This document shows positions 12,849 through 23,677 of a stretch of DNA of 32,289 nucleotides, one piece after another. A program made the position numbers and the translations under genes. Position 1 is the first letter of the stretch; each line of letters starts with the position of its first letter. Source of the DNA: a virus; the IMG/VR virus record IMGVR_UViG_3300045051_000023, positions 1-32,289 of that record; one strand, written 5' to 3'. The notes below the pieces were generated by a model. That model was not told the DNA's origin, made no database searches, and saw nothing but the letters and a program-made list of their open reading frames with translations.

Positions 12849-12849
<1 letters not shown>
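12520..12849 (+). CDS. Beta-rich tail-associated protein, putative
   Basis: A 109-aa protein. It has the pattern of the small immunoglobulin-like or BppU-N-like domains in phage tail clusters: [58 protein letters not shown]. Comparable domains support fibres on the base plate. Its stop overlaps the fibre gene start in TAATG, which suggests coupled translation of a fibre and its attachment partner. AGGGG precedes the ATG. Confidence 0.5.
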
Positions 12850-14918
<2,069 letters not shown>

Positions 14919-18869: not shown

Positions 18870-19790
18870 ATGGCTAAGAACAATGTAGCAGAACAAATTG
18901 AAACACTAGGCGACGCAATCTTTGTTGGAAACTTCGAAGACGGTTCACCCGAATGGCACGCACAACGTGCTAAGGGAATTGGTGGCAGCGACGTTGGTGT
19001 TATTTGTGGACTAAGCGAATGGACCAGCCCTTACACTTGGGCAGCGAAACGTTTAGGAAAAATCGAATCTGATTTTGAAACTTCCGAAGCAATGGAATGG
19101 GGCACAATTCTTGAACCCGTTATTCTTGATTGGTTTGAACGAAACAACCCTGACCTTGAATTGTGGCGTAATGCTGGAACCTGGCGACACAAAGACCGCG
19201 AATGGCAGCAAGCAAACCCAGACGCGTTGTTCAGCGAAGACGGTGGTAAGACTTGGAACTTGATTGAAGTAAAAACTGCACGCTATGAAGACCAGTGGAA
19301 ACAGACTGAATCTGGTGACGACATTGTTCCACCAACTTACCGTGCACAGGTGTTGTGGTATTTGCAAACTTTTGGAATGCAAAAAGCAAAAGTAGTTGTG
19401 TTGTTCAGTGGTTCGAAACCACGCGTGTTTGAAATCACAAATGACAAGTTTGAAGCAGACGCAAACTTGGCGAAGGTCACAGAGTTCATGGCCGAATACG
19501 TCAACAAAGAAACACTGCCACCATTCAGTGCACCATTCACTTCAACATTGGAAACCGTGCGATACATGCACCCAGACATTGAAGATAATGAAGTTGAACT
19601 AAGCATTGAAGGTGTTGCCTACTTTGAAGCAGCCCGTGCATTGGCTGAAGCCCAAGCAGAAATGGATTTGGTGAAGGCTGAAGTGTTGCAGGTTATGGGT
19701 AAAGCAAAACGTGGAATGATAAATGGCCAGTGGGTTTTGACACGTCAAGCCCGCGGCGGCGGTGCACCGTTCTTGGTTGTCAAAAAATGA
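18870..19790 (+). CDS. YqaJ/lambda exonuclease-family recombination nuclease
   Basis: A 306-aa nuclease of the PD-(D/E)XK class. Motifs are in order: GGSD (38-41, IGGSDVGVICG), E82 in WGTILEPVI, D118 in ANPDAL, and E133-x-K135 in LIEVKTA, followed by the helix YRAQVLWYLQTF. This matches the YqaJ viral recombinase family, which degrades one strand from double-stranded ends to feed an annealing protein, here probably the product of 20232-20729. The C-terminal 60 residues are a helical extension. It starts a long tightly packed operon with 4- and 8-base overlaps. Confidence 0.85.
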   Translation: MAKNNVAEQIETLGDAIFVGNFEDGSPEWHAQRAKGIGGSDVGVICGLSEWTSPYTWAAKRLGKIESDFETSEAMEWGTILEPVILDWFERNNPDLELWRNAGTWRHKDREWQQANPDALFSEDGGKTWNLIEVKTARYEDQWKQTESGDDIVPPTYRAQVLWYLQTFGMQKAKVVVLFSGSKPRVFEITNDKFEADANLAKVTEFMAEYVNKETLPPFSAPFTSTLETVRYMHPDIEDNEVELSIEGVAYFEAARALAEAQAEMDLVKAEVLQVMGKAKRGMINGQWVLTRQARGGGAPFLVVKK

Positions 19791-20239
19791 CCCATAACGT
19801 GACGCGTTATGCTACTGAAGAAACTAGAAACAATGAAAGAATGGTTTCTGCATTTCTCGAAAAAGCATGGAACGTCGAAATTCTAGACCGTGGACATTAT
19901 GACCCGATAGATTGGGACATAATCGAAGACGGTGAACAAATCGGTGTGATTGAATTGAAGTCTTATAACCGTTATGCGTCAAAGGACCCAGTGACAATTT
20001 GCAACGTTAGAAAATACATTGCATTGCGTGACTGGAATTTAGAAACAGACATGCCAGCAATCTACATGGTAAACTTCTTAGATGAAATACGCTATATTGA
20101 CGTGAGAAACATAAATCCAAGCCACCCAGTTATGGGTGGGCAAAAAGGCGGACCCCGTTCAACAGATTGGGAACCCGTTTACCAAATACTCGTTAGCAGC
20201 ATGAAACTGTTAGCGAAGAAGGGAAAACAAAATGGCTAA
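19787..20239 (+). CDS. PD-(D/E)XK-type nuclease, putative
   Basis: A 150-aa protein starting in an ATGA overlap. The core IDWDIIEDGEQIGVIELKSY supplies D44 and E56-x-K58, a typical D-(x)n-ExK nuclease arrangement, after an N-terminal helix (NNERMVSAFLEKAWN) placed as in small resolvases and repair nucleases. It lies between the YqaJ exonuclease and the putative annealing protein, so a role in processing recombination intermediates is likely. The frame extends back to 19730, but the overlap start is preferred. Substrate unknown. Confidence 0.65.
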   Translation: MTHNVTRYATEETRNNERMVSAFLEKAWNVEILDRGHYDPIDWDIIEDGEQIGVIELKSYNRYASKDPVTICNVRKYIALRDWNLETDMPAIYMVNFLDEIRYIDVRNINPSHPVMGGQKGGPRSTDWEPVYQILVSSMKLLAKKGKQNG

Positions 20240-20729
20240 CTACAAAGGCCCACTTGATTACATTGACGTTGCAACCCGCATTGTTGAATTTCGTGAGAAA
20301 TTTCCAACAGGTTCATTGCAGCAACATTCAGTTGAATTTGTAAACGTGAACGGAAAAGACTGGGTAGTTTACACCGCAGCGGCTTACCGAACACCAGACG
20401 ACATTCGTCCAGGAATGGGAACCGCTTGGGAACCAATCCCAGGTCCAACAAACTTCACACGCGACAGCGAAGTTCAGAATGCTGAAACTGCCGCTTGGGG
20501 CCGTGCAATGGTGGCTGCTTTGGCCGTTGACACACGCAAGGGAATCGCTAGTTCGGAAGAAGTTCGCAACCGTCAAGTTGAATCTGCACCTGCACGAAAC
20601 TGGTCAGCCGAAACAGAAAAACTGACAGACCGCGACAGCGCAGTTCAGTTGTTCAACGAAGCACGCACCCAGAAGGCACCAAAGGCCGTTCTGGACGCTA
20701 TCACAGCAAAGGCTAAGAGTTTTGCCTAA
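20232..20729 (+). CDS. Single-strand annealing protein (Rad52/Erf-like), putative
   Basis: A 165-aa protein with an N-terminal module YIDVATRIVEFREKFP, a strand WVVYTAAAYRT, and the motif SEVQNAETAAWGRAMVAAL near residues 83-102, which resembles the conserved helix of Erf/Rad52-like annealing proteins in actinophages. The C-terminal part is a flexible charged region. Beside a YqaJ nuclease, this gives the standard exonuclease/annealase pair of phage recombination. The start is in an ATGGCTAA overlap. The family call is by motif only. Confidence 0.55.
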   Translation: MANYKGPLDYIDVATRIVEFREKFPTGSLQQHSVEFVNVNGKDWVVYTAAAYRTPDDIRPGMGTAWEPIPGPTNFTRDSEVQNAETAAWGRAMVAALAVDTRKGIASSEEVRNRQVESAPARNWSAETEKLTDRDSAVQLFNEARTQKAPKAVLDAITAKAKSFA

Positions 20730-21468: not shown

Positions 21469-21803
21469 CACCAAAACAGTTTCAGAAGTTTTTAGAACGC
21501 GACGGTGGTTGCTACCATTGTGGTAGCACCGAAGCACTTTCACCTAACCATAGGGCTAACCGTGGAATGGGCGGGTCCAAGCAACGTGACGTGCCTAGCA
21601 ACATTTTTGTGTTGTGCAGCGAAATGAATAACGCGATTGAACAAAACGCACACTTGGCTTCCGCTGCCAGGTCTAAGGGGTGGAAGTTGTGGAATTGGCA
21701 GGACCCTACCACGACCCCTATTTTCGACACGCAGAAGAATCAGTGGTTTATCCTGGGTGACGATTTCACCCGTAGCATTGTAAATTCGAAGGGAACCGAA
21801 TGA
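21465..21803 (+). CDS. HNH endonuclease-like protein
   Basis: A 112-aa protein. C-x2-C at CYHCG and the motif PNHRANRGMGGSK, followed by SNIFVLCSEMNNAIE, match a group of HNH-like proteins in actinophages, in which the Asn-His pair and a later Asn form the metal site. The start is TTG at 21465 in a TTGA overlap with GGGAAG upstream; a TTG at 21453 is also possible. The C-terminus (WFILGDDFTRSI) is non-catalytic. Target unknown; it may assist recombination or host DNA degradation. Confidence 0.6.
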   Translation: MTPKQFQKFLERDGGCYHCGSTEALSPNHRANRGMGGSKQRDVPSNIFVLCSEMNNAIEQNAHLASAARSKGWKLWNWQDPTTTPIFDTQKNQWFILGDDFTRSIVNSKGTE

Positions 21804-22618
21804 GTATTGAAGTAATGAACGCAGTCTGGCGAATGTCAGGTGCAACAGGCCGTGCACGTCTTGTGCTTTTGGCAATCGCAGACCACCAAGGGGAAATTGG
21901 TGCGTGGCCGTCTATCACAACTTTGGCACGCATGGTAAATGCGTCCGAACGAAGTGTGCAACGCGACATTCAAGAACTTGTCGAAATGGGTGAACTTGAA
22001 GTTCATGTTCAGGCTGCACCTTCACGCGGACAATACAAATCAAACCTTTACTGGGTCACTTTGCCAGGGGTGACAGAATCGCGTTCAGGGGTGACAGATT
22101 TTGATTCAGGGGTGACAGAATCGGCACCAGGGGTGACAACAGTTGGCGCACTAACCCTTATAGAACCCTTAAAGAAACCTAATAGAAATATAACTTCTGA
22201 AATCGAAATTTCTTTTGAAGAATTTTGGAAGGTCTACCCGCGCAAGGCTGGAAAAGAAGCAGCCCGTAAAGCGTTCGTCAAAGCGTTCCAGTGTGACGGT
22301 GAAGATGTTGTTGCTGGTGCGGTTCGTTTCGCAAATGACCCTTACTTGCCGCAAGACAAAAACTTTATTCCACACCCAGCAACTTGGCTAAATGCTGGCC
22401 GTTGGTCAGACGACCCGCTGCCGCCCCGTGAGCGGTCTAAAGATGAACTTGCACTAATCGCTGCGGAACAGGCACGAAAAGCCCGTGAAGCGTCGCTGAA
22501 GGCCACTGAAGCCCTAATGCGTGAAAGTGCACAGAAGAAGGCTGAAGCCAGCCCACCACCAAAGTGTGAACACGGTAATACAATCGTGTCTTGCAAAATC
22601 TGCTTACACCGTAGGTAG
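21800..22618 (+). CDS. Helix-turn-helix replication initiator, putative
   Basis: A 272-aa protein. Residues 15-75 are a winged helix-turn-helix (GRARLVLLAIADHQ, WPSITTLARMVNASERSVQRDIQELVEMGEL) like those of phage replication initiators and DnaD-type proteins. A linker over residues 89-113 carries the repeated motif SGVT, encoded by the iterons. A second domain (EEFWKVYPRKAGKEAARKAF, then FIPHPATWLNAGRW) is typical of phage replication proteins. The C-terminus has a Cys/His group (CEHGNTIVSCKICLH). It starts in ATGA with AAGGGAACC upstream. By analogy with lambda O, it probably binds its own gene. Confidence 0.75.
   Translation: MSIEVMNAVWRMSGATGRARLVLLAIADHQGEIGAWPSITTLARMVNASERSVQRDIQELVEMGELEVHVQAAPSRGQYKSNLYWVTLPGVTESRSGVTDFDSGVTESAPGVTTVGALTLIEPLKKPNRNITSEIEISFEEFWKVYPRKAGKEAARKAFVKAFQCDGEDVVAGAVRFANDPYLPQDKNFIPHPATWLNAGRWSDDPLPPRERSKDELALIAAEQARKAREASLKATEALMRESAQKKAEASPPPKCEHGNTIVSCKICLHRR
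22065..22139. repeat. Four iterons, candidate replication origin
   Basis: CAGGGGTGACA occurs four times, starting at 22065, 22086, 22107 and 22128, an exact 21-bp period (two helical turns). Bases between copies vary. The array lies inside the initiator gene and is followed by an AT-rich stretch (about 22155-22230). This is the architecture of the lambda origin within gene O. Confidence 0.75.
22155..22230. other. AT-rich stretch, candidate DNA unwinding element
   Basis: About 75 bp of visibly A/T-rich coding sequence (around TAATAGAAATATAACTTC and GAAATTTCTTTTGAAG) directly after the iteron array. It codes for the linker and start of the second domain. It would be the melting site if the iterons are the origin. 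Confidence 0.5.
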
Positions 22619-22662: not shown

Positions 22663-23043
22663 ATGGCAGTGAATGTAATTTTTGAAGGCTTTGTGAATGA
22701 AGTGAAGCCTTTTTCTTGGGGAACCGTTGCGAAGGTTAGCCATTCGCAACGTGCAAAGAATGACGCAACAGGCCAGTGGGAAACCGTTGGCAAAGATTAC
22801 TTTGACGTGACACTTCCAGAAGGCGTGACCGTGCCTGAAGGTGAACTGGTTCGTGTTGAAGGAACTTTGAAAGTTGGCACTTACGACAAGAAGGACGGCA
22901 CCACTGGTGTTGCTTTGAAAGTTCGTGCACAGTCCATTCGAAAAGTTGAACGCGGCAACCGTGACGCAGTAGCAGCAGCGAAAGAAGTTCTAGCACCAGT
23001 GCCAGATTCTTGGACTGCCGTAGACACCGAATTGCCGTTCTAA
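22663..23043 (+). CDS. ssb: Single-stranded DNA-binding protein (OB-fold)
   Basis: A 126-aa protein. An N-terminal five-strand pattern (VIFEGFVNEVKPFSWGTVAKVSH, YFDVTLPEG, GELVRVEGTLKVGTY, VALKVRAQSIRKV) fits an OB fold. The last residues, VDTELPF, mimic the acidic tip of bacterial SSB proteins that docks repair and replication partners. It lies after the initiator and before RusA. Length is shorter than that of host SSB, as is usual for phage versions. The family is assigned by fold pattern and tail motif. Confidence 0.7.
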   Translation: MAVNVIFEGFVNEVKPFSWGTVAKVSHSQRAKNDATGQWETVGKDYFDVTLPEGVTVPEGELVRVEGTLKVGTYDKKDGTTGVALKVRAQSIRKVERGNRDAVAAAKEVLAPVPDSWTAVDTELPF

Positions 23044-23198
23044 TGGGCATGGTCTTTTTCTGTTTTGCGTTTGCGTTTTTGTTTTTCGCTAATGCGGCTG
23101 CGGTTGAAAACCAGTGGCTTATTTGGGTGAACACAGCAGCGGCGGTTTATTACACCGTTGTTGGTGCAATCACAGGTTGGATAAAGGCCAGACAATGA
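23043..23198 (+). CDS. Small two-helix membrane protein
   Basis: A 51-aa protein starting in TAATG with the SSB stop. Residues 3-20 (MVFFCFAFAFLFFANAAA) and about 26-46 (LIWVNTAAAVYYTVVGAITGW) are hydrophobic helices, and the end is basic (KARQ). The function is unknown; small early membrane proteins can block superinfection or alter the host envelope (inference). The stop overlaps the RusA start by 4 bases. Confidence 0.6.
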   Translation: MGMVFFCFAFAFLFFANAAAVENQWLIWVNTAAAVYYTVVGAITGWIKARQ

Positions 23199-23677
23199 CA
23201 CGTGAAGAACTGTATTTTTCAGCCTTTGGCACCCCAAGACCGCAGGGGTCCAAACGCTACATTGGCAATGGCCGTTTCATTGAAGCGTCCGACGTTATGC
23301 CGTGGCGTAAGGCAATCGCTGAAGCAGTTCAGTTAGCGTTCCAGGCGACGGGGGACGAACGTCCGTTTACTGCACCAGTTGTGGTTTATGCGACGTTTTT
23401 CCTTCCGCGTCCGAAATCGGTGAAGCGTCTTTTCCCTACAGTGCCACCTGATTTGGATAAGTTGCAGCGTGCTTTGGGTGACGGCCTTTCGATAAACGCC
23501 AAGGCCCTTCAGGACGATTCGCTTATTGTGAAGTGGGTGGCAAGCAAGGTTTATGCCGATTCACGGGAAGCGGGGGTGCGTGTCGCAATCAAATTGGCGA
23601 CCCCTGAAAACCTGCTAGAAGCCGAACTTGCCAGTAATTCACTGGATTTTGGGGTGTGCGAGGTTTGTGGCAAATAG
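23195..23677 (+). CDS. rusA: RusA-type Holliday junction resolvase
   Basis: A 160-aa nuclease. It has the RusA order: an N-terminal strand with GTPRPQGSKR, a central YATFFLPRPKSV, the catalytic PPDLDKLQRALGDGL (D86, D88) and the DDSLIV strand (D107, D108). RusA cuts four-way junctions as a dimer, resolving recombination and replication intermediates before packaging. The C-terminus adds CEVCGK, an unusual Cys pair that could bind metal. The ATGA start is preferred over the longer frame from 23114. Confidence 0.88.
   Translation: MTREELYFSAFGTPRPQGSKRYIGNGRFIEASDVMPWRKAIAEAVQLAFQATGDERPFTAPVVVYATFFLPRPKSVKRLFPTVPPDLDKLQRALGDGLSINAKALQDDSLIVKWVASKVYADSREAGVRVAIKLATPENLLEAELASNSLDFGVCEVCGK

Follow-up and report, generated by a model that had tools for sequence, protein, structure and literature searches.

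The window, by which we mean the whole stretch of viral DNA analysed (32,289 nucleotides), contains a replication-initiator gene with an array of four identical repeats in its middle and AT-rich DNA beyond them; a YqaJ exonuclease gene lies upstream, and genes for a single-strand DNA-binding protein (SSB) and RusA follow. The features, in order of position, are these:

18870..19790, + strand: YqaJ/RecE-like recombination exonuclease gene of the same module (PF09588, E 2e-22; phrog_434, E 4e-68)
21800..22618, + strand: initiator gene, 272 aa, with a winged-helix N-terminal domain, a linker encoded by the putative origin and a helical C-terminal domain (PF13730, phrog_270, phrog_8540, AlphaFold2 model)
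21800..22063, + strand: predicted winged-helix DNA-binding domain, residues 1-88 (AlphaFold2 model; covariation of residues 71/81)
22064..22183, + strand: strong synonymous constraint, codons 89-128 (same-codon fraction 0.74-0.90 versus 0.27-0.52 in the rest of the gene)
22065..22075, + strand: iteron 1, CAGGGGTGACA (exact match; conserved context CAGGGGTGACAGA)
22086..22096, + strand: iteron 2, CAGGGGTGACA (exact match; codon-use profile)
22107..22117, + strand: iteron 3, CAGGGGTGACA (exact match; codon-use profile)
22128..22138, + strand: iteron 4, CAGGGGTGACA (exact match; codon-use profile)
22139..22152, + strand: 14-bp spacer separating iteron 4 from the AT-rich repeats (alignment of downstream DNA in 71 relatives; position constant in nearly all close relatives)
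22153..22187, + strand: three 11-bp AT-rich repeats, AACCCTTATAG / AACCCTTAAAG / AAACCTAATAG, a putative unwinding element (repeat search; conserved in relatives)
22169..22218, + strand: 50-bp stretch of highest AT content near the array, 78% (base composition)
22196..22615, + strand: C-terminal domain of FWxxYP...PATWLN type (model pLDDT 96; phrog_9327 'primosomal protein', E 3.5e-21)
22663..23043, + strand: SSB gene, adjoining the initiator (PF00436, E 0.002, below the Pfam cut-off; phrog_44, E 8e-6)
23198..23677, + strand: RusA-like Holliday junction resolvase gene (PF05866, E 1.3e-11)

The array begins 265 bp into the initiator gene, and its exact matches at 22065, 22086, 22107 and 22128 on the + strand recur nowhere else in the whole record and are spaced by exactly 21 bp (TRF score 92). 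None of 5000 shuffles that kept both protein and codon usage produced any 9-mer four times. A search inside the iterons found no inverted repeat, and by eye there are 3-bp TCA/TGA arms only. Together with the PF13730 and phrog_270 matches of the encoded protein, these data bear out the sequence-only reading from which the analysis started insofar as it placed four iterons at 21-bp steps inside a winged-helix replication gene.

The initiator itself matches PF13730 (HTH_36) with E 2.4e-10 and 40.5 bits against a cut-off of 25, phrog_270 ('replication initiation protein') with E 4.5e-37 and phrog_8540 ('replication initiation O-like') with E 9.6e-21, while neither PF04492 (Phage_rep_O) nor PF06970 (RepA_N) matches it at E up to 0.1. 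Residues 2-93 of its AlphaFold2 model align to winged-helix folds in general, including the N-terminal domain of pSK41 RepA (4pt7), at a middling Z of 8.1 that suggests likeness of fold only. Between the two folded domains, pLDDT falls below 50 at residues 94-129, a linker that is accordingly predicted to be disordered and that coincides with the repeat-coding segment. The C-terminal domain is proposed to be a helicase-recruiting module; despite its pLDDT of 96, a fold search matched it to no solved structure, helicase loaders included. Among the ORFs scanned in this possibly partial record we found no match to a P-like helicase-loader gene, the initiator being followed by SSB and RusA; the claim that this phage lacks polymerase, primase and helicase genes agrees with the same ORFs, read with the same caution about completeness. 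As the record also holds a WhiB-like gene, the host is probably actinobacterial. Elsewhere in the window, an unannotated gene at 20232-20729 (phrog_23738, unknown function) lies just after a PDDEXK nuclease gene and upstream of the initiator, a position that by itself makes a single-strand annealing role possible, and a collagen-like (GXY repeat) protein is encoded in the tail region at 12849-14918.

To follow the array in relatives, 80 related viral contigs were retrieved with an alignment of 90 residues that covered the DNA-binding domain and nothing else. Every one of the 80 carries an array of GTGACA iterons in the linker, with 3-5 copies in 79 and 2 copies in the remaining one, whose contig is truncated; a relative with the protein retained and the repeats gone, which the sequence-only reading had named as the evidence that would count against it, is thus absent from this domain-selected set. 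Across 71 distinct genes, 278 of the 279 GVT/EVT motifs in the linker are written GGG/GAG-GTG-ACA, whereas elsewhere in the genes GGG supplies 13% of Gly, GTG 27% of Val and ACA 24% of Thr codons; per-codon counts of GTG and ACA include the search seed GTGACA, of which the 278/279 motif count is independent. The spacers between copies vary while the iteron core stays, and in eight genes one copy has moved by 1 base, to a spacing of 22 where 21 is usual, so that RGD is encoded. Finally, over 2114 gene pairs less than 80% identical, the profile of same-codon use rises at 22064-22183 only, with sharp edges and a peak that spans both iterons and AT-rich repeats, and is flat elsewhere, so that the element is bounded and the AT-rich repeats belong to it. 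Its constrained part (about 22064-22183/22190) is slightly narrower than the 22065-22230 first proposed. Since the codons are uniform, copies occur out of frame and the constraint is confined to the array and the AT-rich repeats, these comparisons indicate that selection acts on the DNA and not on the peptide, and the SGVT repeats of the protein can be regarded, as had been suggested, as a by-product.

The AT-rich stretch is likewise real, with 75% AT at 22160-22230, and this region is among the most AT-rich DNA in the record: the AT content of 22169..22218 is equalled or exceeded by just 0.04% of the record's 50-mers. It starts 14 bp past the last iteron rather than at once, as had been supposed, and the three 11-bp repeats at 22153-22187 are a feature additional to the earlier description. 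Pairs of AACC 9-14 bp apart number 59 in 63 non-redundant genes versus a mean of 12.2 in synonymous shuffles, a count to be read with the motif having been picked after looking at some of the same sequences, and similar AACC-rich repeats also lie downstream of the arrays of distant initiator families. In a separate set of Phage_rep_O genes (L072, L075, L084, L085, L120, L125, L134), TGTCACC iterons replace those of lambda (L168), and the lambda AT-rich stretch CACAAAAGACACTATTACAAAAGA is retained almost letter for letter; there the iterons appear to have been exchanged and the unwinding region kept.

Within a gene the iteron units vary in concert, with CAGGGG, ATGAGG/CAGAGG or ACGATG preceding a constant TGACA: most genes have CAGGGGTGACA, some CAGAGG/ATGAGGTGACA, and two (L007 and L462) ACGATGTGACA. 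These types go with residues of the wing, as GGG genes have Q71 with S81 or T81 in 51 of 54 cases, GAG genes R71 and A81 in all 12, and both GAT genes Y71 and T81. The match hints at a recognition code. On the tree the GAG type requires three changes, and independent origins were set aside as a single clade is not rejected (p-AU 0.21); because the type may thus have arisen once, we regard the code as a strong lead and not as proof. In the GAG-type genes L390, L397, L411, L415, L422, L423, L426-L433 and L435, the first iteron is still GGGGTGACA and the later ones are GAGGTGACA.

Close relatives with near-identical N-terminal domain and array bear different C-terminal parts: of 81 genes, 60 have the FWxxYP type, 11 are DnaT-like as judged from a simple sequence pattern, 6 have some other part and 4 are truncated. 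Between the window and L363, nucleotide identity drops from about 0.9 to background just past the AT-rich repeats, and in this pair, as in L374, L378, L388 and L391, the C-terminal modules are swapped just downstream of these repeats. By these alignments the origin would form the border at which C-terminal modules are exchanged.

How far the arrangement extends was assessed in viral contigs by searching for three copies of GGTGACA in steps of 20-25 bp, which returned at least 83 distinct ORFs. Among those listed, 67 match phrog_678 ('replication initiation O-like'; about 80% initiator-like), and HTH_36 is present in 53 and Phage_rep_O in 13. Many of the arrays mix spacings of 21, 22, 23 and 24 bp, switching between the two frames that avoid TGA. 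A reversed-motif scan of viral contigs gave HTH_36 in 4 of 56 cases and mostly collagen-like tail proteins and other repeats; among control motifs, reversed ACAGTGG fell in winged-helix initiators in 6 of 76 cases and permuted GACAGGT at 24 of 80 loci, mostly of one lineage. Since control motifs also match initiators, GGTGACA is not alone in this: iterons of some sort are generally associated with such genes, and the notion of a universal GGTGACA core was toned down on account of the permuted motif. The rule suggested by these scans is that winged-helix initiator genes contain an origin whose iterons are specific to the lineage, GGTGACA being one widespread version. The GACAGGT-containing arrays found in another winged-helix gene family of related phages (L489, L491, L494, L498, L499, L505, L546, L547, L549, L562, L565) are probably further intragenic origins. 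In whole genomes, the triple GGTGACA scan met mostly unrelated tandem repeats of 7, 8, 12 and 24 bp, with about 10 of 118 hits in initiator genes, and the GGTGACA-initiator association is therefore limited to viral contigs. Several of the genome contigs with GGTGACA-containing heptanucleotide tandem repeats unrelated to initiators (L289, L297, L298, L327, L331, L347) are cyanobacterial.

Isolated phages of Arthrobacter, Curtobacterium, Vibrio, Pseudomonas, Microcystis and Psychrobacter carry other iterons in the same linker. Their HTH_36 initiators (phrog_270 / phrog_678; Arthrobacter phages Galaxy, RedFox and others) belong to the same N-terminal family and have a lineage-specific array in the same linker in most of the 16 examined, differing by lineage in iteron sequence and spacing, some with inverted pairs or 17/22-bp steps. 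No array was seen in the initiator gene of a distant isolate relative, Ruegeria phage 45A6. The initiator linker of Pseudomonas phage vB_PaeS-D14E (L451, gene 1001-1762) holds seven ACCCCCG at spacings of 17, 17, 17, 21, 23 and 22, and a replication P gene follows that initiator. A literature search of limited coverage, from which absence is not proven, found no mention of GGTGACA with iterons in a phage context.

Taken together, the array and the AT-rich repeats very probably constitute the replication origin of the phage, located where its own initiator gene encodes the linker. In the mechanism that we propose, the winged-helix domain of each initiator would bind one CAGGGGTGACAGA iteron, and the two-turn spacing of 21 bp would set the bound initiators on one face of the helix in an O-some-like complex, from which strain could pass into the adjoining 11-bp AT-rich repeats and open them. 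The C-terminal domain would then recruit or load the host DnaB helicase, with the host replisome doing the rest, and the origin-encoded residues (about 89-129) would serve as a flexible tether only. Iteron binding, melting, helicase recruitment and replication start at the array are steps that we infer. A GC-skew peak had been expected near 22.1 kb; the cumulative curve is highest over a broad stretch at about 23-25 kb, is dominated by other effects, and shows no sharp turn at 22.1 kb and no clear signal.

Three other explanations deserve comparison with an intragenic origin. Iteron systems often show autoregulatory feedback, and the sites lie inside the initiator gene, whose product would bind them; the array could thus be an operator at which the initiator blocks its own transcription, with replication starting elsewhere. 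We consider this improbable, as 265 bp of the gene precede the array, very AT-rich DNA with conserved 11-mers that an operator does not need follows it at a constant distance, and the proven parallels (lambda, pSK41) are origins; an operator role could, though, be additional to origin function. Less probable still is another cis-acting site using the same repeats: iterated sites also serve partition, packaging and superinfection exclusion in phages and plasmids, but the location within the initiator gene is constant across lineages, an AT-rich element adjoins and the iterons match wing residues of the initiator. That the repeats were selected as protein, a flexible SGVT-repeat linker whose DNA identity stems from codon bias or recent duplication, agrees with a spacing that is a multiple of three and with the repetition of the peptide, and is nonetheless ruled out for practical purposes by the frame-shifted copies and synonymous constraint, by codon choice uniform in a manner unlike the rest of the gene, by spacers that differ while the iteron core stays, and by the spacings of 17, 22 and 23 bp in distant relatives, which break the frame.

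Hardly any uncultured phage has a known origin of replication; the intragenic origin proposed here can be located to about 120 bp from sequence alone, with an internal control in the synonymous constraint and the frame-shifted copies. Initiator genes of many phage lineages bear a signature of the same kind, and origins could therefore be mapped in bulk. What makes the locus interesting is that the element is well delimited, that a recognition code may exist and that a module border falls there: as iteron variants go with wing residues, the specificity of initiator for origin can be tested directly, and the swap at that border suggests a way for phages to replace the helicase-recruiting module yet keep the origin. 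More tentatively, and at somewhat less than even likelihood, the winged-helix domain, iterons and AACC-type AT-rich repeats may form one travelling cassette with a readable code, residues 71/81 dictating which bases precede GTGACA, and the C-terminal helicase-recruiting modules attached to it would be interchangeable, switching just past the AT-rich repeats; with the GGTGACA core used by HTH_36 and Phage_rep_O initiators in many phages, origin specificity would then be predictable from sequence.

The arrangement appears to be of the lambda kind with a different initiator family. The four iterons to which lambda O binds lie in gene O itself, next to AT-rich DNA, and are inverted repeats of about 19 bp (PMC7466680). 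The window shares with lambda the placing of four iterons midway through the initiator gene with AT-rich DNA beyond them, a similar spacing (21 bp, against 20, 24 and 23 bp computed from the lambda sequence), and an initiator with a DNA-binding N-terminal part and a C-terminal part that recruits helicase in lambda and is proposed to do so here. It differs in that lambda O is a Phage_rep_O protein (PF04492) whereas the window's initiator is HTH_36 (PF13730), in that its iterons are direct, asymmetric and strictly 21 bp apart rather than inverted, in the lack of a P-like gene among the scanned ORFs, and in the sequences of both iterons and AT-rich DNA, the latter being built of 11-bp repeats. 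Of the original description as a lambda-O-like origin, it is thus the layout that holds, and not the protein family or the iteron symmetry.

In the staphylococcal plasmid pSK41, the four boxes bound by the winged-helix N-terminal domain of Rep sit midway through rep; the linker that they encode is dispensable, and the C-terminal domain makes contact with DnaG primase (PMC5703833). In the rep sequence analysed, these boxes recur every 23 bp within the linker, and the encoded protein shares the pSK41 Rep accession. The window resembles it in its winged-helix N-terminal domain, its linker encoded by the putative origin with four direct boxes and its C-terminal module, for which contact with host machinery is known in pSK41. 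Unlike the window's HTH_36, the pSK41 domain is RepA_N; the box sequence is TGTCAAAAGGACAC, unlike the window's iterons, and the C-terminal domain is Bac_RepA_C in the plasmid and of FWxxYP type in the phage. Plasmid pUSA03 (L443, NC_007792, 101-1060) and pSK41 (L444, 13205-14164) encode the same Rep accession, WP_000043161.1, which is RepA_N by Pfam; pUSA03 is listed among plasmids with a pfam13730 hybrid initiator (PMC5703833), while its sequence reads RepA_N. On domain and repeat architecture, the window's element belongs to the broad kind of origins embedded in an initiator gene and stands outside both RepA_N and the lambda O family, the latter since it has neither the Phage_rep_O domain nor inverted-repeat iterons.
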